From the NCBI GenBank assembly GCA_019635575.1, contig JAHBZF010000019.1, forward strand, positions 1 through 40,749: a stretch of 40,749 nucleotides of DNA. The letters run 5' to 3'. This stretch comes from Pseudolabrys sp. (GTDB lineage: Bacteria; Pseudomonadota; Alphaproteobacteria; Rhizobiales; Xanthobacteraceae). The position numbers were made by a program, and so were the translations under genes. Shown here piece after piece: positions 4,784 through 25,569 of this stretch. Position 1 is the stretch's first letter. Each line of letters opens with the position of its first letter. A model generated the notes under the pieces. That model made no database searches. It saw nothing but the letters and a program-made list of their open reading frames with translations, and had not been told where the DNA came from.

Positions 4784-6265
4784 GTGTGGTTTCTCAACTC
4801 AACTCAAGAGCTTACCGCCAAGCTCCAAGCTCTTGAAAAGTCCCAGGCCATCATCGAATTCGATCTCGATGGCACCGTCCTCACCGCAAACAAGAATTTC
4901 CTCGACACGCTGGGCTACACGCTCGACGAGATCAGGGGCTGCCACCACAGCCTGTTCGTGCCGCCCGGGCATCGCGACAGCACGGAGTATCGGGAGTTCT
5001 GGAATGCGCTGCGCCGCGGGGAGTATCAGGCCCGGGAGTTCATGCGCATCGCCAAGGACGGCCGGCCAATCTGGATCCAGGGATCCTACAATCCACTGCT
5101 CGACCGCAACGGCAAGCCGTTCAAGGTGGTGAAGTTCGCCACCGACATTACCGCGCAGAAGCTGCGCAGCGCCGACTACGAAGGCCAGATCAAGGCCATC
5201 TACAAGTCACAGGCGGTGATCGAGTTCAAGCTCGACGGCACCATCATCACCGCCAATGAGAACTTTCTCAAAACGCTGGGCTACCGGCTGGACGAGATCC
5301 AGGGCCAGCACCACAGCCTGTTCGTGGAGCCCGAATACCGCGACAGCGCCGCCTATCGCACCTTCTGGGATTCGCTGCGCAACGGCGACTATCAGGCCGC
5401 GGAATACAAGCGCCTCGGCAAGGGCGGCCGGGCGGTCTGGATCCAGGCGTCCTACAACCCGATCATCGGCGCGGACGGCAAACTGTCCAAGGTGGTGAAG
5501 TTCGCCACCGACACCACCGCCCAGGTGGAGGACCGCATCCGCCGCGGTGAACTGCAGAAGACCATCGACGCCGATCTCGGGCAGATCACCGAGGCGGTGG
5601 CCTCGACCTCCGAGCGGGTGACCTCGGCGGCGAGCGCCTCGACCCAGACTTCCTCCAACATGCAGGCCGTGGCTTCCGGCGCCGAGGAGCTGGCGGCCTC
5701 GGTCGGCGAGATCAGCCGTCAGGCGGCGGATGCGCTGCGCATCTCGATGCAGGCGGTGCAGCAGGCCAACGAGACCAGCGCCATCGTCTCCGGCCTCGCC
5801 GTCGCCGCCCAGAAGATCGGCGACGTGGTCAAGCTTATCAACAATATCGCCGAGCAGACCAACCTGCTGGCGCTCAACGCCACCATCGAGGCCGCGCGCG
5901 CCGGCGACGCCGGGCGCGGCTTTGCCGTGGTCGCCTCCGAGGTCAAGAGCCTCGCCACCCAGACCGCCAAGGCCACCGACGAGATCAGCGCCCAGATCGC
6001 CGAGGTTCAGGGCACCACCGGCAGCGCCGTCAACGTCATCGAGGCGATCACCCAGACCATCTCGCGGATCAACGAGATTTCAGCGGCGATCGCGGCCTCC
6101 GTGGAGGAGCAGGCCGCTGTCACCCAGAGCATTTCCTCCAATATGTTTTTTAATGATACGGCGACCACCGAGATCTACACCAATATGAGCGACATCGCCC
6201 GGGTGACGCAGTCGGTGGACGAATCCACCCGCAAGGTGCGGGAGGCCTCCCGCGCGCTGGTGTAA
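4784..6265 (+). CDS. Soluble methyl-accepting chemotaxis protein with two PAS domains (reading frame contains adapter insert)
   Basis: Chemoreceptor of 493 residues as written. Two PAS domains (about 15-120 and 137-242) are clear tandem duplicates, sharing [29 protein letters not shown] and the closing KVVKFATD. A methyl-accepting coiled coil follows, with the conserved hairpin tip [19 protein letters not shown]. There is no membrane segment or signal peptide, so it is a cytoplasmic receptor; double PAS receptors often sense redox or small ligands, but nothing here shows which. GTG start 4784 has AAGGAG eight bases upstream. Residues 455-468 ([14 protein letters not shown]) come from a 42-base in-frame insertion built on the Illumina P5 adapter. 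Without it the protein would be 479 residues and read ...[12 protein letters not shown].... Confidence 0.9.
6146..6187. other. Illumina P5 adapter sequence embedded in assembly (artefact)
   Basis: Positions 6152-6180 match the 29-base P5 adapter/flow-cell oligo exactly (begins AATGATACGGCG, ends GAGATCTACAC). Six Ts (6146-6151) precede it, like the poly-T linker of the grafted oligo. The insert is flanked by a repeat of CCAATATG (6138-6145 and 6180-6187), so the foreign block adds 42 bases (14 codons) and leaves the frame open. The match is from established knowledge of the adapter; the conclusion that this is contamination rather than biology is close to certain. Confidence 0.97.
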
Positions 6266-6412: not shown

Positions 6413-7585
6413 ATGATTCCTAACGCGCACGGCACCTTCAATTTCGACCTCGGCGAGACGGCGGACGCGATCCGCGAGACCGTCCGCGATTTCTCGGCGC
6501 ATGAGATCGCGCCGCGCGCCGCGGAGATCGACCGCACCAACCAGTTCCCGCGCGACCTGTGGCCCAAGCTCGGCGCGCTCGGCCTGCATGGCATCACCGT
6601 CGAGGAAGAGTACGGCGGCTCGGGGCTCGGCTATCTCGAGCATTGTATCGCGATGGAGGAAATCTCCCGGGCGTCCGCCTCGGTCGGCCTGTCCTATGGC
6701 GCGCATTCCAACCTCTGCGTCAACCAGATCCGCCGCAACGGCAACGAGGCGCAGAAGAAGAAATACCTGCCGAAGCTGATTTCCGGCGAGCATGTCGGCG
6801 CGCTGGCGATGTCCGAGCCAGGCGCGGGCTCGGACGTGGTGTCCATGAAGACCCGCGCCGAAAAGCGCGGCGACCGCTACATCCTCAATGGCAACAAGAT
6901 GTGGATCACCAACGGGCCGGTGGCCGATACGCTGGTGGTCTACGCCAAGACCGATCCGGCTGCCGGTCCGCGCGGCATCACCGCCTTCCTGATCGAGAAG
7001 GGCATGATGGGCTTCTCCACAGCGCAGAAGCTCGACAAGCTCGGCATGCGCGGCTCCGACACATGCGAACTGATTTTCCAGGACTGCGAGGTGCCGGCGG
7101 AGAACGTGCTCGGCACCGAAGGCGAAGGCGTCAAGGTGCTGATGTCCGGCCTCGACTATGAACGCGCGGTGCTCGCCGCCGGGCCCATCGGCATCATGCA
7201 GGCCTGCCTCGACGTCGTGCTGCCTTATGTGCATGAGCGCAAGCAATTCGGCCAGCCGATCGGGGAGTTTCAACTCGTGCAGGGCAAGCTCGCCGATATG
7301 TATGTCACCACCAACGCGGCGCGCGCCTATGTCTATGCGGTGGCCCGTGCCTGCGACCGGGGCGAGACGACCCGCCAGGACGCCGCCGGCGCGATCCTGC
7401 TGGCGGCGGAGAGCGCAACCAAGATGGCGCTCGACGCGATCCAGTGCCTCGGTGGCAATGGGTATATCAACGACTTCGCCACCGGGCGGCTGTTGCGCGA
7501 TGCCAAGCTCTACGAGATCGGCGCGGGGACGAGCGAAATCCGCCGCATGCTGATCGGCCGCGAGATCTTTGAAAAGACGCGCTGA
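6413..7585 (+). CDS. ivd: Isovaleryl-CoA dehydrogenase
   Basis: FAD enzyme of leucine degradation, converting isovaleryl-CoA to 3-methylcrotonyl-CoA with ETF as acceptor; 390 residues, the usual length. The sequence is of IVD/LiuA type throughout: [64 protein letters not shown] and [17 protein letters not shown]. The catalytic Glu is at 250 in [13 protein letters not shown] on helix G, the IVD position, while the MCAD position holds Ala. ATG 6413 follows GGGAG by ten bases. Its product is the substrate of the methylcrotonyl-CoA carboxylase subunits encoded at 15.6 and 20.6 kb. It is not operonic with them. Confidence 0.93.
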
Positions 7586-7602
7586 CCCGTCGCTGGCGGC
7601 GA

Positions 7603-7618
7603 TTAACTGCGCGTTAAC
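7603..7618 (+). promoter_or_regulatory. Candidate CtrA-binding box
   Basis: TTAA (7603-7606), seven bases, TTAAC (7614-7618): an exact match to the full CtrA consensus TTAA-N7-TTAAC. It lies 48 bases upstream of the ATG of the HTH gene, 17 bases after the ivd stop. Such an AT-rich pattern is rare by chance in DNA this GC-rich. Function is inferred. Confidence 0.5.
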
Positions 7619-7666
7619 CATAAGCGCCTAGGCCATTGACCCATGGAATGAGTGGGAGAGTGGCCG

Positions 7667-7954
7667 ATGCTGCGGGTCAGACTGAAAGCGGACGGACGGA
7701 TCGTCGAAATCGGGGAAGACGGCCGCGAGGTCGAGCTTGATCACAACGACCCGGCCGCCTTTGTTCGCCGTGTGCGCGCGCGGGCGCAACTGACGCAGGC
7801 GGCGTTCGCCGAACGCATCGAGGTGCCGCTCGAAACCGTGCGCAACTGGGAACAGGGGAAGCGCGCGCCGCGCGGTCCGGCCCGTGCACTGTTGAAGGTA
7901 ATCGACCGCGCGCCGCAGGCGGCGTTCGCGGTGCTCGGCGCCCGGCGGGCTTGA
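7667..7954 (+). CDS. Small HTH (XRE/NadS-like) transcriptional regulator
   Basis: 95-residue DNA-binding protein. Residues about 33-80 form a helix-turn-helix (FVRRVRARAQLTQAAFAERI, then VPLETVRNWEQGKRAPRGPA), the pattern seen in XRE and NadS/HigA-type regulators. A short basic, strand-like N-terminus precedes it. ATG 7667 has GGGAGAG six bases upstream; a GTG at 7652 is a weaker alternative. HigA-like proteins are often antitoxins, but no toxin gene is next to it: the next gene is a convergent iron permease 11 bases away. The upstream CtrA-type box suggests cell-cycle control. Target unknown. Confidence 0.82.
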   Translation: MLRVRLKADGRIVEIGEDGREVELDHNDPAAFVRRVRARAQLTQAAFAERIEVPLETVRNWEQGKRAPRGPARALLKVIDRAPQAAFAVLGARRA

Positions 7955-7965
7955 GAGAGGCGCGG

Positions 7966-8790
7966 TTACGCCGTCTTGTGCCGCGGGGCCGGCGTGCCGC
8001 GCGCGACACGCATCAGCAGCGCCATGGCGACGATCACAGCGACATAGACGATGAGCTGCATCTCGCTCGGTCGTTCGGTGTAGCCGATCAGCGTGTGCAG
8101 GAGCTTGCCGACGAGACTGCCTTCCGACAGCAGCCATGACGTATCCCAGACCGTGCGGTCGAGAATGGTCAGCGTGCCGGCGGCGTTGAGGAATTGCACC
8201 GACTGCGCCGCCATGCCGGCCGCTAGCAGCGTGATCATCCAGGTTGTTACCGTGAAGATGTGCCGCGACGGGATCGCCAGCAGGCCGAAATACGTGAGCG
8301 CCGTGAACGCCGCACCGGCAATCACGCCGAGCACGCCGCCAGTGAACAGCGCGATGCCGGAGGTGCCGGAAGCGAGGATGCCGTAGAGGAACAGCACGAC
8401 CTCGGAGCCTTCGCGCAGCACGGCGAGGCCGACGACGACCGCCAGCGCGGTCAGCGGCTTCTGGCCTTCGGCGATCGAGGTGCCGACGCTGCGCAGTTCC
8501 GCCGCCATCTCGCGGCCGTGCTTCGCCATCCAGGCGTTGTGCCACATCAGCATCACCACGGCGATGCCGAGCACGCAGGCATTGAACAGTTCCTGACCGG
8601 CGCCTTCGAACGCTTCGGAGATCGCGCCGGCAAACAGCGCGACGATAGCGGCGCCGATGACGCCGCCAGCGACACCGAGCGCGATCCAGCGGCCGCGGCC
8701 GTCGATGCCGCGCGTTGCCGCCATGACGATGCCGACGATCAGGCCGGCCTCGAGGACTTCGCGAAAGACGATGATCAGCGCGCCAAGCAT
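7966..8790 (-). CDS. FTR1 family iron permease
   Basis: Inner-membrane high-affinity iron permease of 274 residues with about seven hydrophobic segments. Both FTR1 iron-binding signatures are present: R-E-x-x-E at 10-14 (REVLEAGL) and again at 126-130 (REGSEVV). The family takes Fe(III) produced by an oxidase partner, as in EfeUOB and FtrABCD. It lies 12 bases downstream of the cupredoxin gene on the same strand, so the two are almost certainly one operon. No P19, EfeB peroxidase or ferredoxin-type partner is in the window. Confidence 0.93.
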   Translation of the reverse strand: MLGALIIVFREVLEAGLIVGIVMAATRGIDGRGRWIALGVAGGVIGAAIVALFAGAISEAFEGAGQELFNACVLGIAVVMLMWHNAWMAKHGREMAAELRSVGTSIAEGQKPLTALAVVVGLAVLREGSEVVLFLYGILASGTSGIALFTGGVLGVIAGAAFTALTYFGLLAIPSRHIFTVTTWMITLLAAGMAAQSVQFLNAAGTLTILDRTVWDTSWLLSEGSLVGKLLHTLIGYTERPSEMQLIVYVAVIVAMALLMRVARGTPAPRHKTA

Positions 8791-8802
8791 AGGAGTCGTC
8801 CG

Positions 8803-9147
8803 TTATTCCGCGATCATCACGCCTTTGGCGGTCGCCTGGTTGAACTCGCCGATGAATTCATAGCGGCCGGGTGCGATCGGCCCGAACCGGACCAGCGCCT
8901 TGCTGTTGCCGGGGATGACCTTCTCGATTTTCATCGGCAGGCTTTCAAACTCTTCCGGCGTCGGGTCTTCGTTGATGACGACGATACTGAGCCGCTTGTT
9001 GGCCGGGATACGAATTTCCGACGGCGTGAACTTGTGGTCCTTGATCGTCACCGTCAGGTCGTCGGCGGCAACGGCCGTCGCGACGACGGTCGGCGCGGTA
9101 AGCAGGATCGTGGCGGTGACGGCGAAGGCAGCGGCAAAGGGGCGCAT
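8803..9147 (-). CDS. Exported cupredoxin-domain protein, iron-transport partner
   Basis: 114-residue periplasmic protein. Residues 1-28 are a signal peptide (hydrophobic core, cleavage likely after AVA/A). The rest is a cupredoxin-like domain of the FtrB/EfeO type: TIKDHKFTPSEIRIPANKRLSIVVINEDPTPEEFES..., ending in GRYEFIGEFNQATAKG. It contains no cysteine, so it cannot make a classic type-1 blue copper site; acidic residues (EEFE, GEF) may bind metal instead. It probably delivers or oxidises iron for the FTR1 permease encoded directly downstream. Role from family context; metal unproven. Confidence 0.88.
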   Translation of the reverse strand: MRPFAAAFAVTATILLTAPTVVATAVAADDLTVTIKDHKFTPSEIRIPANKRLSIVVINEDPTPEEFESLPMKIEKVIPGNSKALVRFGPIAPGRYEFIGEFNQATAKGVMIAE

Positions 9148-9222
9148 TGCTTAATCCAAAAACAGGGATCGCACACGGGGCCACAAAAGCCACGAACCGT
9201 GCCCGATGCAAGGACGGTCTTC

Positions 9223-9236
9223 TTGAATCGTTCCAA
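9223..9236. promoter_or_regulatory. Candidate Irr-type (ICE-like) palindrome upstream of iron genes
   Basis: TTGAATCGTTCCAA is an imperfect 14-base palindrome (five of seven pairs), in the divergent region between the iron operon and the aldo/keto reductase. It loosely resembles the GAA-N3-TTC core of rhizobial iron control elements. Weak evidence, based on memory of the motif. Confidence 0.2.
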
Positions 9237-9374
9237 TCTATGGGGCATCAGCACGGTCCTTGCCGCGGGCGGCAGCCTCTTCGCCCCACATCATGGCTGG
9301 GTTGCGCGGCGGCGCGGGCGGCTGCCGGTCTGCTACGTTGGTCGAATGAGAGCGAAGCGGTGAAAGGATCGGAC

Positions 9375-10190
9375 ATGAACGTGGTCGAAGCGAATGGTGC
9401 GCGGATTCCGCTGGTGGGGCTGGGGACCTGGGATCTGCGCGGCAGCGATTGCGCGCGTCTGGTCGAGCACGCCATCGGGCTCGGCTACCGCCATGTCGAC
9501 ACCGCGCAGATGTACGACAACGAAAAGGAGGTGGGCGAGGGCGTCCGCGCCTCCGGCAAGCGCAACGAGGTGACGGTAGTTACCAAGGTGCATCCCGAGA
9601 ACATGAAGCCGGCCGATCTCGCACGCTCGGTGAAAGAAAGTCTTGCGCGGCTGAAGATCGATGTGATCGACATCCTGCTGCTGCACTGGCCGAACAAGGC
9701 CGTACCGCTGGCCGACACGATCGGCGCGCTGTGCCGGATGAAGCGCGAGGGCCATGCGCGGCATATTGGTGTTTCCAATTTCAACACCGCGCTGCTCGAT
9801 CAGGCGGCCAAGCTCGCGACGGAGCCGCTGGTGTGCAATCAGTTCGAGACGCATCCGTTCCTCGACACGGCGAAGACTATCGCCGCCACCCGCCGCCACG
9901 GCATGGCGGTGGTCGCCTATAGCCCGATCGCGCGCGGCGGCGCGTCGGATAACGCCGTATTGGCGCGGATCGGCGCGAAGCACGGCAAATCGGCGGCGCA
10001 GATATCGCTGCGCTGGCTGGTGCAGCAAGAGATCGTGGTGATCCCGCGCACGCACCGTCCCGAACGGCTCCAGGAGAATTTCGCGCTGTTTGATTTCGCG
10101 CTGTCGGACGACGAGATGCGCGAGATCGCGACGTTGACGAAAGCCAATGGCCGGATCGTCGATTGGCAGTATTCGCCCAAATGGGATTGA
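9375..10190 (+). CDS. Aldo/keto reductase
   Basis: NADPH-dependent carbonyl reductase of 271 residues, (beta/alpha)8 barrel, cytoplasmic. The full catalytic tetrad is visible: Asp42 and Tyr47 in [10 protein letters not shown], Lys71 in VVTKVH, His104 in LLLHWP. Other family blocks are [15 protein letters not shown] and the cofactor segment [24 protein letters not shown] 9375 has AAAGGA upstream; the open frame extends further 5' but without family similarity. It is close in type to DkgA/DkgB reductases. queC follows after two bases, so they are probably cotranscribed. Physiological substrate unknown. Confidence 0.93.
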
Positions 10191-10192
10191 GC

Positions 10193-10927
10193 ATGCCAAC
10201 TCCTGAGCAGAAGTCCGGTGGCGCGCTGGTGCTGTTCTCCGGCGGACAGGATTCGACGGTCTGTCTTGCCTGGGCGCTGGAGCGGTTCGAGCGCGTCGAG
10301 ACCGTCGGCTTTGATTACGGGCAGCGACATGCGGTCGAACTCACCGTGCGGACGACAGTGCGCGACAAGCTCGCCGCGCTGAAACTGGACTATGCGGCGC
10401 GGCTCGGCGAGGACCATCCGGTCAAGGTCGACGCGCTCGCCGCCATCTCGGAGACGGCGCTGACCCGCGACATGGCCATCGAAATGGCCGACAACGGCCT
10501 GCCGACCACCTTCGTCCCCGGCCGCAACCTGCTGTTCCTGGTACTGGCCGGTGCCATCGCCTATCGCCGCAAACTGACCCATCTGGTGGGCGGCATGTGC
10601 GAGACCGATTATTCCGGCTATCCGGATTGCCGGAATGCGACCATGAAGGCGATGCAATCGGCGCTGGCGCTCGGCCTTGACCGGCCCATGACCGTCGAAA
10701 CGCCGCTGATGTTCATCGACAAGGCGGGAACCTTCGCGATGGCGGAGGACATCGGCGGCGAGGCCCTGCTGCGGCTGACCGTCGAGGACACCCATAGCTG
10801 CTATCTTGGCGACCGCAGCCACCGGCATGACTGGGGCTATGGTTGCGGCTCTTGCCCCGCCTGCGAGTTGCGGGCAAACGGATACCGACAATTCCTGCGG
10901 CAGCGCAAAAGAGCAGAGCGAACATGA
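10193..10927 (+). CDS. queC: 7-cyano-7-deazaguanine synthase
   Basis: ATP-dependent enzyme turning 7-carboxy-7-deazaguanine and ammonia into preQ0, for queuosine in tRNA; 244 residues. The PP-loop SGGQDST is at 16-22, with FDYGQRH, TFVPGRN and [13 protein letters not shown] further on. The zinc site has Cys203, Cys218, Cys221 and Cys224 (CGSCPAC). ATG 10193 begins two bases after the aldo/keto reductase stop; an ATG at 10181 overlapping that gene is possible. The stop overlaps the ATG of the next membrane gene as ATGA. No queD, queE or queF is in the window. Confidence 0.95.
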
Positions 10928-11481
10928 CGTCGCGCCAAAGCATTGAAGGCTATGTCTTTCTGGTCGCCTTCATCCTGACCATTCCATTGGCCAACTGGAT
11001 GATCGGCCATGTCGGGACGGTTTGTGATGCCGACGGCACCTGTCTGGTCCCGGTGGCGCCGGGATTGAAGGCCCCGTCCGGCGTGCTGATGATCGGCATC
11101 GCCTTGGTGCTGCGCGATCTGGTGCAGCGCCGCCTCGGGATCGAGTTCGGCATCGCCGCCATCATCGCCGGTGCAGCCATTTCAGTGGTGGTGGCGCCGC
11201 CCGCGCTGGTGTTCGCGTCAGCGGTCGCGTTTCTGCTGTCGGAAACCGCAGACCTCGCGATCTATACGCCGCTGGCGCGCCGCCGGCTGGTGCTGGCCGT
11301 GGTGCTGTCGAGCATGGCCGGGCTGGTGATCGATTCCATCGTCTTCCTGTGGCTCGCCTTCGGCTCGCTCCAGTTCCTGGAAGGGCAGATCGTCGGCAAG
11401 ATGTGGATGGTGCTGCTGTCGATCCCGCTGGTCGCCTGGTTGCGCCGTCGCGATCAGCGGCTTGGTCTGACGCCGGCCTAA
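10924..11481 (+). CDS. VUT/YhhQ family transporter, probable queuosine-precursor importer
   Basis: Integral membrane protein of 185 residues with about five or six hydrophobic segments. Markers of the VUT (Vut_1, YhhQ) family are the early PLANW, the [20 protein letters not shown] segment and the late [17 protein letters not shown]. YhhQ imports preQ0/preQ1-type queuosine precursors in E. coli. The 4-base ATGA overlap with queC strongly supports that role here by context. The cell may therefore both make and salvage the base. ATG 10924 is fixed by the overlap. Confidence 0.88.
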
Positions 11482-11493
11482 CAGGACTACTCC

Positions 11494-12189
11494 ATGCAGG
11501 ACGCGCTCAAGAAGCTCGAAAAAATCACCACCGGCACCATCACCACGATGCTGCTGAAGAAGGGTATCCGTCACTCCTGGATTGCCGGCGCGATGCCGTT
11601 CGGTTTCTCCGGCAAGCGGCTGGTCGGCCCGGCGTTCACGCTGCGCTTCATTCCGGTGCGCGAAGACCTCGCGACCCCGGCGAGCTGGTCGAACCCGATC
11701 TCGACCCGCGCGGCGATCGAGGACATGCCACCCGGCTGTTTCGTCGTCGCCGACGCCATGGGCGTCACAGGCGCCGGCATCTTCGGCGACATCCTGTGCA
11801 TGCGCATGGTCAAGCGCGGCGTCACGGGTCTCGTCACCGACGGCGTGATGCGTGACAAGCAGGGCATCCTTGCCACCGGCATGCCGATCTGGTGCGCCGG
11901 CGTCGCCGCGCCCGCGTCGGTCAACCAGCTCACTTTCGTCGGCTGGAATGAGCCGGTGGCCTGCGGTGGCTGCGCGATCTTCCCCGGCGATGTGATCGTT
12001 GCCGATGACGACGGCGTCGTGGTGATCCCGAAGGATCTCGTCGAATTCTGCGCGGCTGAGGGCGAGGAGCACGAACTGCTCGAAACCTGGCTGGTGCAGG
12101 AGGTGGAGAAGGGCGAGAAGCTCCCCGGCCTCTATCCGCCCAACGAAGAGAACAAGCAGCGTTACGAAGCCTGGAAGAAACAACGCTGA
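11494..12189 (+). CDS. RraA family protein (HMG/CHA aldolase-like)
   Basis: 231-residue protein of the RraA/class II pyruvate-aldolase fold. The active-site block VTDGVMRD (Arg120, Asp121) is present, with GDILCMRMVKRG before it and GDVIVADDDGVVVIP after it. Members with these residues may be 4-hydroxy-4-methyl-2-oxoglutarate aldolases, oxaloacetate decarboxylases or RNase E regulators; sequence alone does not separate them. The Arg-Asp pair favours an enzyme. ATG 11494 follows AGGA by seven bases. It starts 12 bases after the transporter gene, so it may be part of the queC transcript without sharing its pathway. Confidence 0.85.
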   Translation: MQDALKKLEKITTGTITTMLLKKGIRHSWIAGAMPFGFSGKRLVGPAFTLRFIPVREDLATPASWSNPISTRAAIEDMPPGCFVVADAMGVTGAGIFGDILCMRMVKRGVTGLVTDGVMRDKQGILATGMPIWCAGVAAPASVNQLTFVGWNEPVACGGCAIFPGDVIVADDDGVVVIPKDLVEFCAAEGEEHELLETWLVQEVEKGEKLPGLYPPNEENKQRYEAWKKQR

Positions 12190-12209
12190 GAGCGGGGACG
12201 GGACACGCG

Positions 12210-12998
12210 ATGTTCTTCGTCCTCTCCAAGACCGCGGCGTTTCTGGCTCTGCCGTCGAACCTCGTGCTGATCGCCGGCGTCGCCGGCTTGCTCCTGCTGC
12301 TGACGCGCTATCGCAGGCTCGGGCGGCGGTTGGTGGCAGTCTGCGTTGTGCTCCTGCTGCTGTTCGGCGTCACGCCGCTCGGCATTCTCATGACCACGAG
12401 CCTCGAGCAGCGTTTCCCCGCCTATGACATGACCGGTCCCGCGCCGGACGGGATCATCGTGCTCGGCGGCGGCATCGATCCCGATGCCACCGCGGCGCTC
12501 GGCGAACCGGTGATCGGCGCCGCGTTTCAGCGGCTGATCACGGCGCGGCGGCTGGCCGAGGTCTATCCGACGGCGCGCGTCGTCTATAGCGGCGGCAATG
12601 GCAATCTCGTGCCGGGGGCGGGCCGCGAGGCCGATGTCGCCCGCGCGATGCTGATCCAGCTCGGCGTTCCGGCGGAGCGCATCACGCTCGAACGCGAGTC
12701 CCGCAACACCGCGGAGAACGCTGCCTTCACGCAGGCGCTGATCCATGCCGCGCCCGGCCAGCGTTGGCTGCTGGTGACGTCGCCCGCGCATATGCCGCGA
12801 GCGATGGGGTGCTTCCGGCAGGCGGGCATCCCGGTGGTCGCGGTGCCGGCGGGACCGCGCGAACCGTGGCTGTCGCGCTGGCCGTTGCGGTCGCTCGGCG
12901 CCGAACTCGCGCGGCTCGATGATGCCGCGCATGAATGGCTCGGCCTGATTGCCTATCGGCTGACCGGCCGGACCGGCGCGCTGTTTCCAGGGCCATAG
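12210..12998 (+). CDS. YdcF/SanA/ElyC family membrane protein (DUF218)
   Basis: 262 residues. Two hydrophobic segments at about 8-32 and 40-60 anchor it. The DUF218 domain follows, with the family features IIVLGGGID, VYSGGNG, ERESRNTAENA and LLVTSPAHMPRAM. Relatives (ElyC, SanA, YdcF) are inner-membrane proteins; ElyC affects envelope polysaccharide assembly. The domain probably faces the periplasm. It lies 20 bases after the RraA-type gene on the same strand. Biochemical activity not known. Confidence 0.88.
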   Translation: MFFVLSKTAAFLALPSNLVLIAGVAGLLLLLTRYRRLGRRLVAVCVVLLLLFGVTPLGILMTTSLEQRFPAYDMTGPAPDGIIVLGGGIDPDATAALGEPVIGAAFQRLITARRLAEVYPTARVVYSGGNGNLVPGAGREADVARAMLIQLGVPAERITLERESRNTAENAAFTQALIHAAPGQRWLLVTSPAHMPRAMGCFRQAGIPVVAVPAGPREPWLSRWPLRSLGAELARLDDAAHEWLGLIAYRLTGRTGALFPGP

Positions 12999-13004
12999 GC
13001 TCCG

Positions 13005-13065
13005 GGAGCGTTTTCAGGCGAAGCGGAAACCGGTTCGCGTGAAGAAGAGCGGCCAACCAAAACAC
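13005..13065. repeat. Interspersed hairpin repeat, copy 1
   Basis: Copy of a short family starting GAGCGTTTTC and containing GCGAAGYGG..ACCGGTTCGCGT. The inner arms GCGAA/TTCGC are kept; the outer arm is degraded here. It lies just after the YdcF gene stop. The same element recurs at 17201 and 33232, each time after a stop codon. I recognise it as a common Bradyrhizobiaceae intergenic repeat. Confidence 0.75.
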
Positions 13066-13191
13066 CCTTAACCCGTTATTGGAACTTTCCGGCCACGATC
13101 TAAAATGGCTCGAACGATTCGTGTTGCGGGTCGCGTTCGCGTCCTCCGGCACCGTTGCCATCAACGCCCATCACCGTTTGGGGAATCGATC

Positions 13192-13380
13192 ATGTCCATC
13201 GACCATTCCGTCGACAGCGCCGCGCGGCGCTCCGCCTTGCTGGCCCGCTATTCGACCGAGGCGCGCGACCGGCGCGATCCGTTCAGCACGCCGCGCGGCG
13301 AGACCGTTCTGACCATCGTTGCCACCGTGGCCGGTGTGGCGATCGTTGCTGGCATCGCTGTGTTGATGGGGATGGCGTAA
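13192..13380 (+). CDS. Small membrane protein, hypothetical
   Basis: 62 residues. The N-terminal 40 are polar and charged (SIDHSVDSAARRSALLARYSTEARDRRDPF), and residues about 40-60 are one hydrophobic helix (VLTIVATVAGVAIVAGIAVLMG). It is probably a tail-anchored or single-pass protein. ATG 13192 has GGGGAA six bases upstream. No family recognised. It runs convergent to the DUF599 gene, 24 bases away. Confidence 0.6.
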   Translation: MSIDHSVDSAARRSALLARYSTEARDRRDPFSTPRGETVLTIVATVAGVAIVAGIAVLMGMA

Positions 13381-13404
13381 CGCGCGCGCCGGGGCAGCCG
13401 GGAT

Positions 13405-14121
13405 CTAGACCGGTGGCAGCGACGGTTTGTCGATATCGGGCGTTGTGTCGAACGCGCGCCGCGATTCCGAATAGAACTGGCGTCGATAAATGACCCAGAC
13501 GATGGCGGTCGTGGAGAGCGCCAGCGGGATCGGCCCCAGGAACCAGCCGAGATAGCCGAGCGCGAAGAAGAAGGCGCGCTGCCCGCGGTTGAAGTGGCGG
13601 CCGGCATCGGCGCAGATATGCGCCGTGCGGTGCGCCAGCGCGCGGGCGTGCGGTGTGTCCTTTTCCTCGACCGGCGGCGCCGCGCCGATCAGGATCGCGA
13701 CATAGTTATAGAGCCGGTACGACCAGGCGAACTTGAAGAACGCGTAGACGAAGATGATGGCCAGCCCCATCATCTTTCCTTCCCACAGCACGCGGGTCGG
13801 CGGGCTGGAGAACGGCAGCACCGACACCACGGTCAGGATCTCGTCGGCCGAGCGCAGCAATGTCAGCGTGCCGCCGACCGCGATCAGCGACGTCGAGGCG
13901 AAGAATGCCGCCCCGTTCTGCAGCGAAGCCGTGACCTGTCCATCGACCATCCGCATCGGACGGCCGAGCATTTCCAGCATCCACCGGTCGCGATAGCCGT
14001 GCATCAGCGAATTGAGACTCTCGCCGCCACGCGCGCTGCGCTCGACGACGATCGAGTAGGCGAACCAGGCGGCGAGGAAATAGGCCAGCGCCAGGAGATC
14101 GGGAGGCGAGAGATCGAGCAT
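13405..14121 (-). CDS. DUF599 family membrane protein
   Basis: About 238 residues with four hydrophobic segments: near the N-terminus (LLALAYFLAAWFAYSIVVE), GAAFFASTSLIAVGGTLTLL, MMGLAIIFVYAFFKFAWSYRLYNYVAILIGA, and FFFALGYLGWFLGPIPLALSTTAIVWVIY. The RWMLEMLGRPMRMVDGQ loop and NRGQRAFFFALGYLGWF are typical of DUF599. Function unknown. ATG 14121 (MLDLSPPDLL) is preferred on family grounds; ATG 14145 is an alternative eight residues longer. It is divergent from the rhodanese gene. Confidence 0.82.
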   Translation of the reverse strand: MLDLSPPDLLALAYFLAAWFAYSIVVERSARGGESLNSLMHGYRDRWMLEMLGRPMRMVDGQVTASLQNGAAFFASTSLIAVGGTLTLLRSADEILTVVSVLPFSSPPTRVLWEGKMMGLAIIFVYAFFKFAWSYRLYNYVAILIGAAPPVEEKDTPHARALAHRTAHICADAGRHFNRGQRAFFFALGYLGWFLGPIPLALSTTAIVWVIYRRQFYSESRRAFDTTPDIDKPSLPPV

Positions 14122-14274
14122 GGCGGAATCCGGTGCGGATCGCATGGTGCCACTAGCACGCTGCTATCGGCAATGCCGGAGTTCGAACGGACTTCAGGCA
14201 CGTCTTTCGTGGGCTTGAGGGGTGCCCAAGCCTCTGCCACTCTGCCGCGAAACGCAGATACGAAGGTCCAGAAC

Positions 14275-14682
14275 ATGCCCCAGACCATCACGACCGGATA
14301 CAAGGCGCTGGTCGACGCCGCCGAACGCGAGATCGAAACCATCGCGGTGGAGGATGCGATCAAGCTGCATGGCCGCGACGACGTGGTGCTGATCGATATT
14401 CGCGATCCGCGCGAGCTCGACCGGGACGGGCGGGTGCCGGGCGCGCATCATTGCCCGCGCGGCATGCTGGAATTCTGGATCGATCCGGCGAGCCCATATC
14501 ACAAGCCGTTGTTCGCACAGGACAAGAAGTATGTGTTCTTCTGCGCCGGCGGCCTGCGCTCGGCGCTGGCGACACAGACCGCGCACCGCATGGGGCTCGC
14601 GCCGGTCGCGCATATCAAGGGCGGCTTCGGCGCATGGAAGAAAGCCGGTGGACCGGTGGAAGCCGTGCCGGCCAAAGGCTGA
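14275..14682 (+). CDS. Rhodanese-domain protein
   Basis: Single-domain sulfurtransferase-type protein of 135 residues, without signal peptide, so cytoplasmic. The catalytic loop is CAGGLRS with Cys90, and the CDC25-like blocks VVLIDIRDPRELDRDGRVPGAHHCPRG and HIKGGFGAWKKAGGP are present. Single-domain members carry persulfide sulfur to acceptors. The acceptor here is unknown. ATG 14275 has AAGG eight bases upstream. It is followed by a repeat element with a 37-base palindrome. Confidence 0.9.
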   Translation: MPQTITTGYKALVDAAEREIETIAVEDAIKLHGRDDVVLIDIRDPRELDRDGRVPGAHHCPRGMLEFWIDPASPYHKPLFAQDKKYVFFCAGGLRSALATQTAHRMGLAPVAHIKGGFGAWKKAGGPVEAVPAKG

Positions 14683-14696
14683 GCGCTGGCGGTTTT

Positions 14697-14815
14697 CCGT
14701 CATGGCCGGGCATAGCCGTTCGAAGAACGGCGTTCTTCGAACGGCTATCGTCCCGATAAGGTAAGCAGCGTGCCCGCCCAAGCGGGATGCCGGGGTCAAG
14801 CCAGGGCATGACCGA
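14697..14815. repeat. Interspersed repeat with perfect 37-base palindrome
   Basis: Intergenic element between the rhodanese and GST genes. It opens with CGTCATGGCCGGGCAT and ends GATGCCGGGGTCAAG..GGCATGAC, both recognisable pieces of a repeat common in Bradyrhizobiaceae. In its centre, 14712-14729 and 14731-14748 are perfect 18-base inverted arms around one G. Each arm also holds the smaller palindrome GCCGTTC-GAA-GAACGGC. It could act as a strong transcript 3' end or as a REP-like structure. Confidence 0.75.
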
Positions 14816-14843
14816 TATCGAAAGTCATGACACAAGCGCAGAC

Positions 14844-15515
14844 ATGAAACTCATCATCGGTAACAAGAACTATTCGTCATGGTCGCTGCGGCCGTGGATC
14901 GCCATGACCATGGCCGGCATCCCGTTCGAGGAAACCGTCATCCCGCTCTATGTGCCGGGCAGCGCTGAAGCGATCTTGCAGCATTCGCCGGCCGGCAAGG
15001 TGCCGGTGCTGATCGATGGCGATACCCATGTCTGGGAGTCGCTGGCGATCCTCGATTATCTGGCCGAGCTGCATCCCGACGCGGGCCTGTGGCCGGACGA
15101 TCGCGCCGCGCGCGCCTTGGCCCGCTCGGTGGCGAACGAGATGCACGCTGGGTTCCTGCCGTTGCGCCGCGCCTGTCCGATGAATTTCTGGTTGATCCCG
15201 AAGCCGCGGCCGATCCCGGACGACGCCGTGGCCAATGTCCGCCGGATCGATGCGATCTGGGCGGAGTGCGTGCGCCGCTCCGGCGGTCCGTTCCTGTTCG
15301 GCGGGCGCTTCGGCGCGGCCGACGCCATGTATGCGCCGGTGGTGGCGCGGTTCTTCAACTACGGCGTTGCGGTGTCGCCCACAGCTCACGCCTATATGCA
15401 GGCGGTGATGGCGACGCCGGCCTGGGCGTCGTGGCGCGCGGCGGCACTCAAGGAAACCTGGGTAATGCCCAACAACGAGCCGGACTGGCCGGTGATGGAG
15501 CGGATGTCGGCGTGA
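14844..15515 (+). CDS. Glutathione S-transferase family protein
   Basis: 223-residue GST. The N-terminal thioredoxin-like domain (1-80) has NKNYSSWSLRPW with the Ser-containing active site, the cis-Pro block GKVPVLIDGD and the glutathione-binding ESLAILDYLAE. The all-helical C-terminal domain contains GPFLFGGRFGAADAMYAPVVARF. It resembles YfcF-type GSTs. Substrate unknown. ATG 14844 is chosen because the N-terminal strand MKLIIGNKNYSS starts there; the upstream open frame is repeat sequence. Confidence 0.92.
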   Translation: MKLIIGNKNYSSWSLRPWIAMTMAGIPFEETVIPLYVPGSAEAILQHSPAGKVPVLIDGDTHVWESLAILDYLAELHPDAGLWPDDRAARALARSVANEMHAGFLPLRRACPMNFWLIPKPRPIPDDAVANVRRIDAIWAECVRRSGGPFLFGGRFGAADAMYAPVVARFFNYGVAVSPTAHAYMQAVMATPAWASWRAAALKETWVMPNNEPDWPVMERMSA

Positions 15516-15594
15516 TGCGGTTTTCAGCCTCCGTTCGGGAATGAACGGGGGAAGTGTGCTTTAATTTGACGATGCGCCAACCGGGAGCGACCCC

Positions 15595-17202
15595 TTGCCT
15601 GTGCTCACCTCCAGTGTCGATACCGCCAGTCCGGATTTCAGCGCCAACGCCGCGGCGATGCAGGCGCTGGTCGGCGATCTGCGCGAGAAGCGCGCGGAGG
15701 CGGCGCTCGGCGGTTCGGCGAAAGCACGGGAGCGCCACGTTTCACGCGGCAAGCTCCTCCCGCGTGACCGGGTGATGACGCTGATCGATCCCGGTTCGCC
15801 GTTTCTCGAACTGTCGCCGCTCGCGGCTTATGGACTGTACGAGGACAAGATCCACGGCGCCGGCGTGATTACCGGCATCGGCCGCGTGTCGGGCCGTGAA
15901 TGCATGATCGTGTGCAACGATTCCACCATCAAGGGCGGCACCTACTACCCGATGACGGTGAAGAAGCATCTGCGCGCGCAGGAGATCGCGCGCGAGAACC
16001 GGCTGCCGTGCATCTATCTCGTCGATTCCGGCGGCGCGAACCTGCCGCATCAGGCCGACGTGTTCCCGGATCGCGAGCATTTCGGCCGCATCTTCTACAA
16101 TCAGGCCACCATGTCGGCGATGGGCATCCCGCAGATCGCGGTGGTGATGGGCTCATGCACGGCGGGTGGTGCCTACGTGCCGGCGATGTCGGACGAAACC
16201 ATCATCGTGCGCAACCAGGGCACGATCTTCCTCGGCGGGCCGCCGCTGGTGAAGGCCGCGACCGGCGAGGTAGTCTCGGCGGAAGACCTCGGCGGCGCCG
16301 ACGTGCATGCGCGCAAGTCCGGCGTCGCCGATCATTATGCGCAGAACGATCATCACGCGCTCTCGATCGCGCGGCGGATCGTCGCCAATCTCAACACGGT
16401 ACGGCGGGACGAGGTGGTGCTCGCCGCATCGGCCGAGCCGCAATTCGCGACCGCTGAACTCGATGGTGTGGTGCCGGTCGATCTCAAGAAGCAGTATGAC
16501 ATCCGCGACGTCATCACGCGGCTCGTCGATGGCTCGAACTTCGACGAGTTCAAGCGGCTTTACGGCACCACGCTGGTGACGGGCTTTGCCCGGATCTGGG
16601 GCATTCCCGTCGGCATAATCGCCAACAACGGCATCCTCTTCGCCGAAAGCGCGCTGAAGGGCGCGCATTTCATCGAGCTCTGCTGCCAGCGCCGCATTCC
16701 GCTGCTTTTCCTGCAGAACATAGCCGGCTTCATGGTGGGGCGGCAGTACGAGGCCGGCGGCATCGCCAAGGATGGCGCGAAACTCGTGGCGGCGGTCGCC
16801 TGCGCCGAGGTTCCGAAGATCACGGTCATCGTCGGCGGCTCTTTCGGCGCGGGTAACTATGGCATGTGCGGCCGCGCCTATTCACCACGTTTCCTGTTCA
16901 TGTGGCCGAATGCCCGCATCTCCGTCATGGGCGGCGAGCAGGCGGCGAGCGTCCTCGCCACCGTGCGGCGCGACAATATCGAAGCCTCGGGCGGCCAGTG
17001 GTCGGCGGAGGAAGAAGATCAGTTCAAACAGCCGATCCGCGCGCGTTACGAGGAGGAGGGGCATCCTTACCACGCCACCGCGCGGCTCTGGGATGACGGG
17101 ATCATCGCGCCGTCGGAAACCCGGCGCGTGCTCGGGCTCGCCTTTGCCGCCGCGCTCAATGCGCCGGTGCCGCCGACGACCTTCGGCGTGTTCCGGATGT
17201 GA
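15595..17202 (+). CDS. mccB: 3-methylcrotonyl-CoA carboxylase, beta (carboxyltransferase) subunit
   Basis: 535-residue carboxyltransferase that moves CO2 from biotin to 3-methylcrotonyl-CoA to give 3-methylglutaconyl-CoA in leucine degradation. The match to MCC-beta/LiuB is strong along its length: [83 protein letters not shown] and [16 protein letters not shown]. The start is a TTG at 15595 ([14 protein letters not shown]) with GGAG eight bases upstream; a GTG at 15601 is possible. The alpha subunit gene lies 3.4 kb downstream on the same strand, separated by other genes. Confidence 0.93.
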
Positions 17203-17260
17203 GCGTTCTCAAGCGGAGCGGGGCACCGGTTCGCTTGAGAAAACCTGACACATCAAAACC
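17201..17260. repeat. Interspersed hairpin repeat, copy 2
   Basis: Starts inside the mccB stop codon. TTCTCAAGCG (17206-17215) and CGCTTGAGAA (17232-17241) form ten perfect pairs around a 16-base loop containing ACCGGT. Same family as the elements at 13005 and 33232; the arms have co-varied while the fold is kept. It could terminate mccB. Confidence 0.78.
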
Positions 17261-17272
17261 TGAAAACGACGA

Positions 17273-17303
17273 CGGCCCGGCATGGCAATGCCAAACCGGG
17301 CCG
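17273..17303 (-). terminator. Hairpin terminator of the small membrane gene
   Basis: CGGCCCGG (17273-17280) and CCGGGCCG (17296-17303) form an eight-pair GC stem with an inner TGGCA/TGCCA. Read on the minus strand it follows the 27-residue gene and is trailed by TCGTCGTTTTC, a weak T-run. Confidence 0.5.
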
Positions 17304-17344
17304 GTGGTCGCATTAATCGTGTCTCGGGAACGCTTTGTCTCGCC

Positions 17345-17428
17345 TTAACGCCAGAAGATGGCGAGAAGAATGATGATCGGCAGCGGGATTCCCAGCAGCC
17401 ACAATAACAGTCCGCGTCCAAAACCCAT
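17345..17428 (-). CDS. 27-residue single-pass membrane protein
   Basis: Short open frame MGFGRGLLLWLLGIPLPIIILLAIFWR. It is almost entirely one transmembrane helix with a Pro-rich centre (IPLPII), a glycine/arginine N-terminus and a C-terminal Trp-Arg. A textbook GGAGG lies six bases before the ATG at 17428 and a hairpin follows the stop, so translation is credible. I have seen similar tiny proteins in rhizobial genomes, but the function is unknown. Confidence 0.7.
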   Translation of the reverse strand: MGFGRGLLLWLLGIPLPIIILLAIFWR

Positions 17429-17508
17429 TTGTTGCCTCCGTTCGGTTCGGATGGTCAACGATCGGGCCAACACCGAGTTCCCGCGTTCACGCGGACGCTA
17501 TCGTCGTG

Positions 17509-17709
17509 TCAGCTCGCGAGCTTGCTCCACTCCTCGCGTGCGCGGGCGGTGACGATCTCCCACTTGGCGCTGACGACATCCCAGTTCACCAGCGGCCGCT
17601 CGGCGGCCACCCCGTCGGTGGCGGCCCGCATCGCGTTGGTGGAATCGTAGAGGTAGGCGCCGCCCAGGGTGAGGGCCGCGCCGAGGATCATTCCGAGCAA
17701 AGCGCGCAT
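17509..17709 (-). CDS. Small membrane-anchored hypothetical protein
   Basis: 66 residues. An N-terminal hydrophobic helix (LLGMILGAALTLGGAYLYDS) is followed by a polar amphipathic tail ending VNWDVVSAKWEIVTARAREEWSKLAS. It is probably anchored in the inner membrane with the tail in the periplasm. GGAGG lies eight bases upstream of ATG 17709. No family recognised. It sits 80 bases upstream of the 27-residue gene on the same strand. Confidence 0.72.
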   Translation of the reverse strand: MRALLGMILGAALTLGGAYLYDSTNAMRAATDGVAAERPLVNWDVVSAKWEIVTARAREEWSKLAS

Positions 17710-17870
17710 CTGTCTGACCTCCGCGGTGGTGCTGCCGCTGCCAACGCGGGGTCCGGCCGGGGGTTCCGAAGGGCGATGCTGAATGCGTCAGGTTGCCGCC
17801 TTCTTTCCGATAAGTCCATGATTTTTATATAATTTTCTTTTAACAAATTTTCCCACAAGCGGATTTTCGA

Positions 17871-17879
17871 TGCTATAGT
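17871..17879 (+). promoter_or_regulatory. Extended -10 promoter element
   Basis: TGCTATAGT: TATAGT (17874-17879) preceded by TG, in a conspicuously AT-rich stretch (about 17815-17880). A transcript would start about seven bases later, at or next to the ATG at 17887. The -35 region is weak, as is usual for extended -10 promoters. Confidence 0.45.
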
Positions 17880-17886
17880 GCATTTC

Positions 17887-18492
17887 ATGAACAAGAGTTC
17901 AGTGAAAAAGTCTCGTGCGTCCGGTAAGGCGTCCCGCGTCACCACCAAAAAGGCCGTGAAGGCCAAATCGGCCCGCCGTTCATCGACGGCCCAGGCCCGC
18001 GAGGCGTCGAAATCCAAGGCGGCCAGCGCCGCTCGCGCTGTCCCCGGCAAATCCGCCAAGCCCGCCGGTGTGAAGACGGCCGCTAAATCGGCACCGAAAC
18101 CGGCTCTCAAATCCGCGCCGAAGCCCGCCGCCAAGCCGGTGGTCGCGGCCAAGCCCGCGCCGGGCAAGGCGTCGCAGCGCAGCGTGCAGTCGATCGCCGA
18201 GGCGATGAAGACCGCCAAGCTGGCGCTCATCGCGGCAGCGTCGGCCTCGGCACGGCCGGTCCGGGTTCCGAGCCCGACCGTCGTACCGCCAGCGGAGCCG
18301 ATTACGCACAAGTTCCAGGTTGGGCAGATCGTCTACTACAGCGCGCCGACCTTCGGCCGCGCGCCGGCTCCCGGCAATTTCACGGTCGTGAAGCTCCTGC
18401 CGTCGGAAGGCGACGAGCAGCAGTACCGGATCAAGAGCAACGGCGAGGCATTCGAGCGCGTCGCCAAGGAGAGCCAGCTCGACGTCGTCTGA
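17887..18492 (+). CDS. Histone H1-like Lys/Ala-rich protein with conserved C-terminal domain
   Basis: 201 residues. Residues 1-100 are a low-complexity Lys/Ala/Pro/Ser tail with AKPAPKSA-type repeats, like bacterial H1 analogues that bind DNA. The C-terminal 65 residues form a small compact domain (KFQVGQIVYYSAPTFGRAPAPGNFTVVKLLPSEG, YRIKS, FERVAKESQL) which I know as a conserved stand-alone domain in Bradyrhizobium-type genomes, function unknown. ATG 17887 has no Shine-Dalgarno sequence and lies at the predicted transcription start, so it may be read from a leaderless mRNA. GTG 17878 is an alternative start but overlaps the -10 element. Confidence 0.78.
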   Translation: MNKSSVKKSRASGKASRVTTKKAVKAKSARRSSTAQAREASKSKAASAARAVPGKSAKPAGVKTAAKSAPKPALKSAPKPAAKPVVAAKPAPGKASQRSVQSIAEAMKTAKLALIAAASASARPVRVPSPTVVPPAEPITHKFQVGQIVYYSAPTFGRAPAPGNFTVVKLLPSEGDEQQYRIKSNGEAFERVAKESQLDVV

Positions 18493-18519
18493 CGCCGACG
18501 GCCGCCCACCGCAATGCCA

Positions 18520-18558
18520 TCGGCCCGCCCGGATGATTCCCGGCGGGCCGAAACTTTT
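18520..18558 (+). terminator. Rho-independent terminator after the H1-like gene
   Basis: TCGGCCCGCC (18520-18529) and GGCGGGCCGA (18542-18551) give ten perfect GC-rich pairs, followed by AAC and TTTTT (18554-18558). It ends the H1-like transcript 28 bases after its stop. Confidence 0.8.
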
Positions 18559-18693
18559 TCAGCGTCCACAAACGCGACAAATCCATCCCGCGCCGATTGT
18601 CGTGCGCGCCGGTCCGGGGGATAAATAGCGCGGGAAAACCCGCGCGGACCGTTTTGCGGCCGCGATATCAAAGCAAAAGGCGGAGGAACAGTC

Positions 18694-19674
18694 ATGCAAT
18701 CGGTTGTCCGGGGCGCACTCGCCGTGTTGGCGCTCGCAGCTACGTCCATCTGCGTCACCACCGGTGCGCAGGCCCAAGGCTATCCCGCGCGCACGGTGAA
18801 GATCATCGTGCCGTTTGGCGCAGGTGGTCCCGCTGACGTTTATGCCCGCGTTCTGGCGCAGTCGCTCTCCGACGATCTCAAGCAGTCGTTCATCGTCGAG
18901 AACCGGCCGGGCGCCGGCTCGATCATCGGCACCGACATGGTCGCGAAGTCCGCGCCGGATGGTTACACGCTGCTGTTGATGTCCAACACCCATACCACCA
19001 ACGAGTCGCTGATCGCCAACAAGCCGTTCGAGCTGATGCGCGATTTCGTGGCGGTGGCGCCGATCAACTATTCCGACCTGATCATGGTGATCCACCCGTC
19101 GGTGCCGGCGAAAAACCTCGCCGAGTTCATCGCGCTCGCCAAGAAGGAGCCAGGCAAGCTCAACTACGCGTCCTCGGGGCCGGGAACGCCGTATCACATG
19201 GCCGGCGAACTGTTCAAAGCCATGAGCGGCACCGACATCGTTCATGTTCCGCACAAGGCATCTGGCGAGGCGCGCAACAGCGTGCTCGGCGGCCATGTGC
19301 AGATGATGTTCGACGCGATCCCGACCATGCTCAACAACGTCAAGGCCGGGCAGGTGCGTGCGCTCGGCACCACCGGCGAAAAACGTTCGGCGCTGACGCC
19401 GGACCTGCCGACGGTGGCCGAGGGCGGCGTCCCCGGTTATGAGGCGACGATCTGGCTCGGCCTGATGGCGCCGAAGGGAACGCCGGACGACGTGGTCAAC
19501 AAGCTCAACGCCGAGGTCCGCCGCATTGTCGCCAAGCCCGCGGTCAAGGAAGCGTGGCAGAAACAGGGTGCGGCGCCGATGAGCATGTCGCCGAAGGAGT
19601 TCGATGCCTATCTTCGCAAGGACATCGAGAAGTGGGCCAAGGTGGTCAAGCTCTCCGGCGCGAAAGCCCAGTGA
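18694..19674 (+). CDS. Bug/TctC-type periplasmic solute-binding protein
   Basis: 326-residue exported binding protein of the tripartite tricarboxylate transporter (Bug) family. The signal peptide is residues 1-28 (cut after AQA). Family landmarks are YPARTVKIIVPFGAGGPADVYAR, VENRPGAGSIIGTDMVAKSAPDGYTLL, NYASSGPGTPYHMAGELF and TPDLPTVAEGGVPGYEA. Bug proteins bind small carboxylates and related ligands; the ligand is not readable from sequence. No TctA or TctB membrane genes are nearby, so it is an orphan, as is common for this family. GGAGG lies seven bases before ATG 18694. Confidence 0.92.
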   Translation: MQSVVRGALAVLALAATSICVTTGAQAQGYPARTVKIIVPFGAGGPADVYARVLAQSLSDDLKQSFIVENRPGAGSIIGTDMVAKSAPDGYTLLLMSNTHTTNESLIANKPFELMRDFVAVAPINYSDLIMVIHPSVPAKNLAEFIALAKKEPGKLNYASSGPGTPYHMAGELFKAMSGTDIVHVPHKASGEARNSVLGGHVQMMFDAIPTMLNNVKAGQVRALGTTGEKRSALTPDLPTVAEGGVPGYEATIWLGLMAPKGTPDDVVNKLNAEVRRIVAKPAVKEAWQKQGAAPMSMSPKEFDAYLRKDIEKWAKVVKLSGAKAQ

Positions 19675-19711
19675 TGAGCGTGACGACGAACCGGTGGAGC
19701 GGACGGGGCGG

Positions 19712-20533
19712 ATGAAAACGGCGGTGGCCATCGTGCTGGCGATGCTGATCGCGGCGGGCGCGACGTTTGTCGCGCTCGACCGGGTCAGCGACCGCGAGCA
19801 TGCCGCCGACCGCCGTGCGCTGGCGCAACGCGCGGGCGAACTCGCCGCGCGGGCGCTGGTGCCGGGCTCGCCGCTTGCCTGTCTCGACGGTGCCGCCGGC
19901 GATCTCGTCGAGGCTGGCTGCGAAGCCGTGCTGTTCAGGCGTCCCGAGACGGTCGCCGCCGCCGTCACCTACACCGCGGCGCGGCTCGATCTGCTGGCCG
20001 ACGCCGTCGCCTACGGCAAGCAGGGCGACACCAGCTTCGACCGCGTCACCGCCGGGCTGCGGCGCGCCGCGGAGCTTGATCGGTTCGGCATCGCCGCGCA
20101 TGTGCTCGCGACCCGCGACGGCTGCAACCCGGACCGCTGCGCCGCTTTCACGCTGGTCGGCGACGCCAACACGTTGAAATCCAATCTGCGCTCGCGGGTA
20201 TTCGCGCAATATGTCGAGCGGCACCGCGCCGCGTGGACCGTGCCGGAGAAGGCTGCGCCATCCGATGCGCCCGTGGTGTCGGCGGCGCCCGGTAGCGATG
20301 CGATGGCTGCGGCGACGCCGGTGGCACCGGCGGCGCACCCCGCCGCGCCATCGGGCCGCTACGATTTCCCGTCGGCGGCCTCGATCCCGCCGGTCAGCAT
20401 CATGAATCCCGAGCCGAAGCAGGCAGAGCCGAAGCAAGCGGACCCGAAACAGGCGGACCAGCCGGCCGAACGTAACCGTCCCGCGCCGGCGCGGCGTGCC
20501 ACCAATCCCACCTCCGGCGCGGCGCCGCGTTGA
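19712..20533 (+). CDS. Hypothetical exported/membrane-anchored protein with Pro/Ala-rich tail
   Basis: 273 residues. An N-terminal hydrophobic helix (2-22, TAVAIVLAMLIAAGATFVAL) acts as signal anchor. A mostly helical middle domain follows with paired cysteines (SPLACLDGAAGDLVEAGCEAVLF and DGCNPDRCAAF) that could form periplasmic disulfides. From about 190 on the chain is low complexity with the tandem repeat EPKQA near 235-252. Family not recognised. It lies between the Bug gene and mccA on the same strand, 24 bases before mccA, so it may be cotranscribed with the carboxylase. Confidence 0.75.
   Translation: MKTAVAIVLAMLIAAGATFVALDRVSDREHAADRRALAQRAGELAARALVPGSPLACLDGAAGDLVEAGCEAVLFRRPETVAAAVTYTAARLDLLADAVAYGKQGDTSFDRVTAGLRRAAELDRFGIAAHVLATRDGCNPDRCAAFTLVGDANTLKSNLRSRVFAQYVERHRAAWTVPEKAAPSDAPVVSAAPGSDAMAAATPVAPAAHPAAPSGRYDFPSAASIPPVSIMNPEPKQAEPKQADPKQADQPAERNRPAPARRATNPTSGAAPR
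20411..20458 (+). repeat. Tandem 15-base coding repeat (EPKQA)
   Basis: Three consecutive near-copies of a 15-base unit coding for EPKQA / EPKQA / DPKQA within the hypothetical gene's low-complexity tail. Unit count may vary between strains. Confidence 0.7.
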
Positions 20534-20557
20534 GACGAAAAGAGACAGCGAGGCGTC

Positions 20558-22534: not shown

Positions 22535-22544
22535 GATTTTTGGA

Positions 22545-22982: not shown

Positions 22983-23002
22983 GAATTCCGATCCGAAGCG
23001 GG

Positions 23003-23112
23003 GTGGCCGGGACAAGCCGGGCCGTGACGTGGAGAGAGTGATAACGCGAACGTCGATCTCTCACTCCGGCCTCATCCTGAGCAGGCCGTGCAGCGGCCGT
23101 CTCGAAGGATGC
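23003..23112. repeat. Two interspersed repeat fragments
   Basis: 23003-23030 (GGTGGCCGGGACAAGCCGGG...) is the reverse form of the CGTCATGGCCGGGCTTGTCCCGGCC element seen widely in Bradyrhizobiaceae. 23066-23112 (CGGCCTCATCCTGAG...CTCGAAGGATG) belongs to a second common element and folds with stem GGCCG/CGGCC (23084-23098). They fill the space between DUF1489 and the convergent transporter operon and probably serve both as 3' end structures. Confidence 0.65.
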
Positions 23113-23131
23113 GGTTGTCCTTGTTTCGCTC

Positions 23132-25532: not shown

Positions 25533-25569
25533 GTTCCCTCGGACTTTTTTCGTTGGCCGTGACGGCTCG

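Follow-up and report, generated by a model that had tools for sequence, protein, structure and literature searches.

Adapter sequence in assembled genomes

Illumina adapter sequence is known to find its way into public assemblies. For the MGnify microbial genomes, the main text of PMC11536531 describes contamination that is concentrated at contig ends and was counted by the TruSeq stem, AGATCGGAAGAG; a word search of that main text finds neither AATGATACGG nor misprim, internal, or flow cell. The pertinent part of PMC3163567 describes adapter chimeras and leftover adapter in short-insert Illumina reads; its passage on mispriming deals with mixed sequencing primers, unlike the surface primers inside library inserts considered here. 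An immobilised P5 primer with a spacer of ten Ts is described in a passage of PMC11123353. In one open-access library, P5 strings headed by six Ts and by ten Ts (T6-P5 and T10-P5) occur in one and the same published paper. Searches of this library yielded no description of an in-register, frame-preserving replacement by P5, nor the ten-residue peptide that such an artefact encodes here.

This report concerns a replacement of that kind in the window, the entire contig of 40,749 bases that was analysed. It resembles the contamination treated in the main text of PMC11536531 in being Illumina adapter sequence assembled into a public microbial genome, and is a frame-preserving variant of this known problem. 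It differs from the contamination treated there, marked by the stem AGATCGGAAGAG and removed by trimming ends, in three respects: P5 stands alone; it lies inside the contig; and it replaces gene sequence in register.

A preliminary description of this DNA had remarked that adapter-derived peptides are known contaminants of public databases, and the collections scanned do contain such sequence. P5 preceded by at least six Ts is present in 83 stretches of IMG/VR, and P5 preceded by at least four Ts in at least 120 stretches of GTDB contigs. T6-P5 was found in 22 phage records (of the 20 matches listed, 17 are no more than 400 bases from where the record ends) and in one plasmid record, away from the record ends; at that search sensitivity, none was found in Escherichia coli genome records. 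P5 alone occurs in two of 398 genomes of the phylum and two of 43 of the genus, the window genome being counted in both.

These copies are of two kinds. A total of 210 (86 viral, 124 genomic) were classed by what comes after P5, using simple string rules under which a few near-end "direct" copies resemble cut Nextera stems. Among copies at least 300 bases inside the ends of their loci, 12 of 13 are joined directly to genome; the figure becomes 13 of 15 when L009 (direct) and L030 (Nextera), whose loci were cut short of the contig ends, are counted as internal. The other 195 copies lie near contig ends, 181 of them with a TruSeq or Nextera stem, and these stem-bearing copies are ordinary read-through. 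Short-insert read-through thus has the T run and P5 in common with the window block, whereas it carries a stem and sits at contig ends; the window block has no stem and lies inside a gene.

One genome with a completeness rating of 100% has P5, together with 52 Ts and a Nextera stem, in the interior of a 4.79 Mb contig (G087:C1; locus L115, 1449-1529). In a plasmid record described as complete (CP058799.1, 14871-16105), a P5-index-Nextera stretch is preceded by an apparent P7 end and As.

A primer block inside a chemoreceptor gene

The affected gene, at 4784..6265 on the plus strand, encodes a PAS-PAS-MCP chemoreceptor. It begins with GTG and runs as an open frame of 493 codons; Pfam matches (PAS folds, and MCPsignal at residues 323-480) and relatives support the assignment. 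Within it, at 6146..6180 on the same strand, lies a 35-base block with two parts: six Ts (6146..6151), read as the 5′ spacer of a surface-bound primer; and P5 (6152..6180), identical at 29 of 29 bases and joined directly to genome without a TruSeq or Nextera stem. Both elements had been located correctly in the preliminary description, which likened the Ts to those of the flow-cell oligo.

This P5 is the sole copy in the assembly (3.83 Mb, 209 contigs) when up to two mismatches are allowed. Across the whole assembly, the reversed P5 control pattern gave no match, the P7 oligo was not found at up to two mismatches, and the adapter stem AGATCGGAAGAGC was not found by exact match. Starting at 6152, P5 is well within the contig and is followed at once by gene sequence, unlike read-through, which is expected at contig ends with a stem between P5 and genome.

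The block occupies receptor residues 455-466, inside the match to the MCP signalling domain, and the reading frame remains open across these twelve residues. The earlier statements that the frame survives and that the signalling domain is misrepresented are right. The central claim, that this is adapter sequence, is borne out by the complete identity with an Illumina oligo and by the absence of the block from the same place in all nine close relatives. The T6-P5 block is a sequencing artefact and no real feature of the organism; it has no biological significance and matters only as an artefact.

Replacement in register

Close relatives of the receptor (83-87% identical) were found by searching 391 genomes of the family, and nine were fetched (L373-L381; proteins 83-86% identical). 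With the block masked, all nine align across the whole gene without a gap, and the number of bases between the two flanks is the same in each as in the window gene. Register is thus exact on both sides of the block, with no extra length in the window. Nine more distant relatives were also examined with the block masked: seven span the site, none of them with a gap there, and two do not reach it. Compared with L374, the window is identical at 84 of 90 bases in the upstream flank and 68 of 70 in the downstream flank, against 17 of 35 in the block. The comparison shows that the 35 bases at 6146-6180 replace 35 native bases in register and add none. Because the primer letters stand one for one in place of native letters, the gene still looks whole.

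The block had been taken for an insertion of 42 bases bounded by a repeat, such that homologues should pass directly from SISSNM to SDIARV. They do not: the first alignment of homologues already had twelve different residues where the block lies. The repeat itself is there, CCAATATG being present at 6138-6145 and again at 6180-6187, where the second copy takes in the last C of P5. Its boundary role is not upheld, as both copies occur in relatives. The left copy (6138..6145, plus strand) is native, found at the same place with small differences; the right copy, reduced to CAATATG (6181..6187, plus strand), is likewise native and outside the artefact.

Three other origins were considered and rejected. 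A target-site duplication by Tn5 (Nextera) does not account for the repeat, which is native and has no adjoining mosaic-end sequence. Gain or loss of whole heptads in the coiled coil of the receptor (14 residues make two heptads) would need an indel, and there is none. Nor were two distant loci joined into a chimera, as both flanks match one gene in relatives.

Other direct junctions

At internal direct junctions, P5 is preceded by about six or about ten Ts. The counts are six (the window, L116, and L188), seven (L170), ten (L009, L011, L016, L019, L193, L215, and L227), eleven (L031, L189, and L232), and thirteen (L060). Neighbouring native Ts lengthen the run; at L060, the sister sequence suggests that three of the thirteen are native, leaving ten. 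A contig from another genome, L342, starts exactly at T6-P5 and continues directly into genome. The T spacer is the mark of a surface-grafted primer and points to the flow-cell oligo.

Replacement in register is seen at seven sites: the window, L116, L060, L016, L189, L215, and L011. The L116 block (1495-1529; G028:C28:75794-75828) lies in an RND transporter gene of a genus-mate, with MdtB as a solved relative, and is in register in 11 of 11 relatives; the relative L243 is 93% identical and of the same length. L189 is a XerC/D-type recombinase gene, in register in 12 of 12 relatives and with XerD as a solved relative. L016, which also has solved relatives, is in register in 79 of 79. The remaining comparisons are smaller: two of two relatives fetched for L215 (from three matches), the one relative of L011, and the one relative that spans L060.

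At two further sites the picture is ambiguous: for L193, both relatives align with a gap of two residues next to the block, as do solved relatives, and L232 differs in length from all four of its relatives. A third, L188, is out of register; it contains five Ns, and a flank is duplicated. The register comparison left out L009, L019, L031, L170, L217, and L227. The frame is not kept in every case: in L227, from a Chloroflexi contig with the coverage label 211, T10-P5 at 5517-5555 on the minus strand introduces two stops where the frame is open apart from them.

P5-like sequence at the affected sites

Positions in relatives were ranked by their match to the 3′ end of P5; the ranking drew on three of the nine relatives of the window gene and, at every other site, on a single chosen one. 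In L373 and L374, the two closest relatives of the window receptor, the site is the best match over 15 bases, with none better among 8,900 and 8,894 positions, respectively; in the third, L378, one position is better. The result is weaker over 12 bases, where one other position is better in each of the three. Over 17 bases there are ties in L373 and L374, and four better positions in L378.

Similar matches occur elsewhere. The relative L243 has the last 8 bases of P5 at the L116 site, and the sister of L060 has the last 9. The single relatives chosen for L189 and L215 have no better position over 15 bases and one tie each (for L189, L348 was chosen, the closest relative being L347). At L188, native and P5-tailed versions stand side by side with 12 bases in common, counted by eye. 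In the distant relatives of L011 and L016 there is no P5-like sequence at the site, 70 and 45 positions, respectively, being better over 15 bases.

The last 17 bases of P5 are present in ten genomes among 385 alphaproteobacterial ones: six times as adapter, the window genome included, and four times as native sequence at intact XerC/D-type sites (L338, L341, L345, and L346). Each of the four native matches lies in a XerC/D-like TTEIYTHV motif, two recognised by translation and two by eye from the DNA. In GC-rich genomes, the codons for the XerC/D recombinase motif TTEIYTH can include 17 bases of P5; L189 is one such gene, and it is overwritten. P5 with a XerC/D-like continuation was not found in viral contigs. 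These native matches have two implications: they are possible false alarms in adapter screens that use the 3′ end of P5; and, being intact, they argue that mispriming is not inevitable. Even where the match is good, overwriting must be an occasional event.

How the block may have arisen

The observations to be explained are P5 with six Ts, joined directly to genome; replacement in register here and at six further sites; and, in the closest relatives, sequence resembling P5 at the affected place. The best explanation, and a probable one, is mispriming by a surface primer within a library insert, after which the mixed cluster gave reads running from native sequence into P5 and back. During cluster growth, the 3′ end of the surface-bound primer (T spacer plus P5) would pair with a part of the insert that resembles P5. 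Extension would then yield shortened strands that start with T6-P5 and pass directly into genome. Because the surface primer is attached by its 5′ end, no genome precedes its Ts on the same strand, and the return to native sequence needs another source.

Full-length strands of the same cluster may be that source. Shortened and full-length strands would be read in step, cycle by cycle. A read towards P5 would begin with native bases and go on to the P5 complement and the As of the shortened strands, which would win the base call; where the shortened strands end at the surface, full-length strands would be read again at the same cycle. The product would be an in-register mosaic, which the assembler may take as a path; with no adapter stem in it, a trimmer has nothing to find. 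Mosaic reads are thus predicted; mispriming on the surface is the probable first step, and the mixed cluster is probably what set the register. Some observations count against this explanation: the better or tied positions over 12 and 17 bases, and the one better over 15 bases in L378; the distant relatives of L011 and L016; the gap at L193, the length difference at L232, and the loss of register at L188. So do the coverage labels of affected contigs (110 for L189, 211 for L227), since at such high coverage the native path should have been open to the assembler.

The main rival supposes that the reads, coming from shortened molecules, did no more than end in P5, and that gap closing, polishing, or overlapping then placed them on the native sequence in register, the adapter winning the consensus. 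It would yield an identical contig, and L188, with its Ns and duplicated flank, could be an assembler coping with P5-ended reads at a misprimed site. We nevertheless consider it unlikely. Contig names of affected cases look like those of de Bruijn assemblers, which need reads over both junctions; L189 and L227 are on contigs named NODE_, which we take to denote SPAdes. Moreover, exact register at seven sites exceeds what the sole visible join, at L188, achieved. The same regularity makes the preliminary description's assembly "joined across an adapter-containing read" too simple, because a plain join is not expected to regain exact register, here or at six other sites. Together with the native repeat copies and the equal lengths in nine close and seven spanning distant relatives, this leaves the 42-base insertion highly improbable, even though CCAATATG does flank the block.

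Mispriming might instead have involved the P5 primer of library PCR, whose 3′ end would be identical if that primer stops at the end of P5. The runs of about six or ten Ts at internal direct junctions make this very doubtful, and we know of no library primer with a T spacer; the collection scans required at least six Ts (IMG/VR) or four (GTDB), so they would miss cases that lack Ts. That the block is real sequence of the organism could be argued from the open frame and from the MCP domain match that runs across it. Such an origin is scarcely conceivable: the block has a T spacer and matches P5 at 29 of 29 bases, and the same T-P5 block recurs in genes, genomes, and viral contigs that are unrelated to one another.

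It seems reasonably likely that mispriming by surface primers, as clusters grow, is an Illumina error of a general kind that depends on sequence. Where DNA resembles the 3′ end of P5, exactly 35 or 39 primer bases could silently take its place, gene length and often the frame would be kept, and the place would be partly predictable. Such an artefact escapes common checks, having no stem, no contig end, no frameshift, and a normal gene length, and its peptide could pass for natural receptor variation. Trimming of contig ends or counting of AGATCGGAAGAG would have missed the window case; cases of this sort are found by searching for P5 alone inside contigs.

Contig context

The nearest relatives of the receptor belong to another genus of the family. 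A misbinned contig was considered and is contradicted by DNA and protein matches to the genus-mate G015: a window protein that we presume to be carboxylase-like is 95% identical there, and window positions 6509-25560 match its DNA at 92-98% identity with two short breaks. The contig thus fits the genus. DNA similarity to G015 ends at about 6509; the adjoining 19.8 kb fetched from that genome contains nothing that matches the receptor gene or the sequence to its left. Towards the right contig end, a tRNA-Pro gene (38685-38761) stands about 490 bases before a gene for a phage-type integrase with an arm DNA-binding domain (39252-40454); this region (38685-40454) is possibly the edge of an integrated element.
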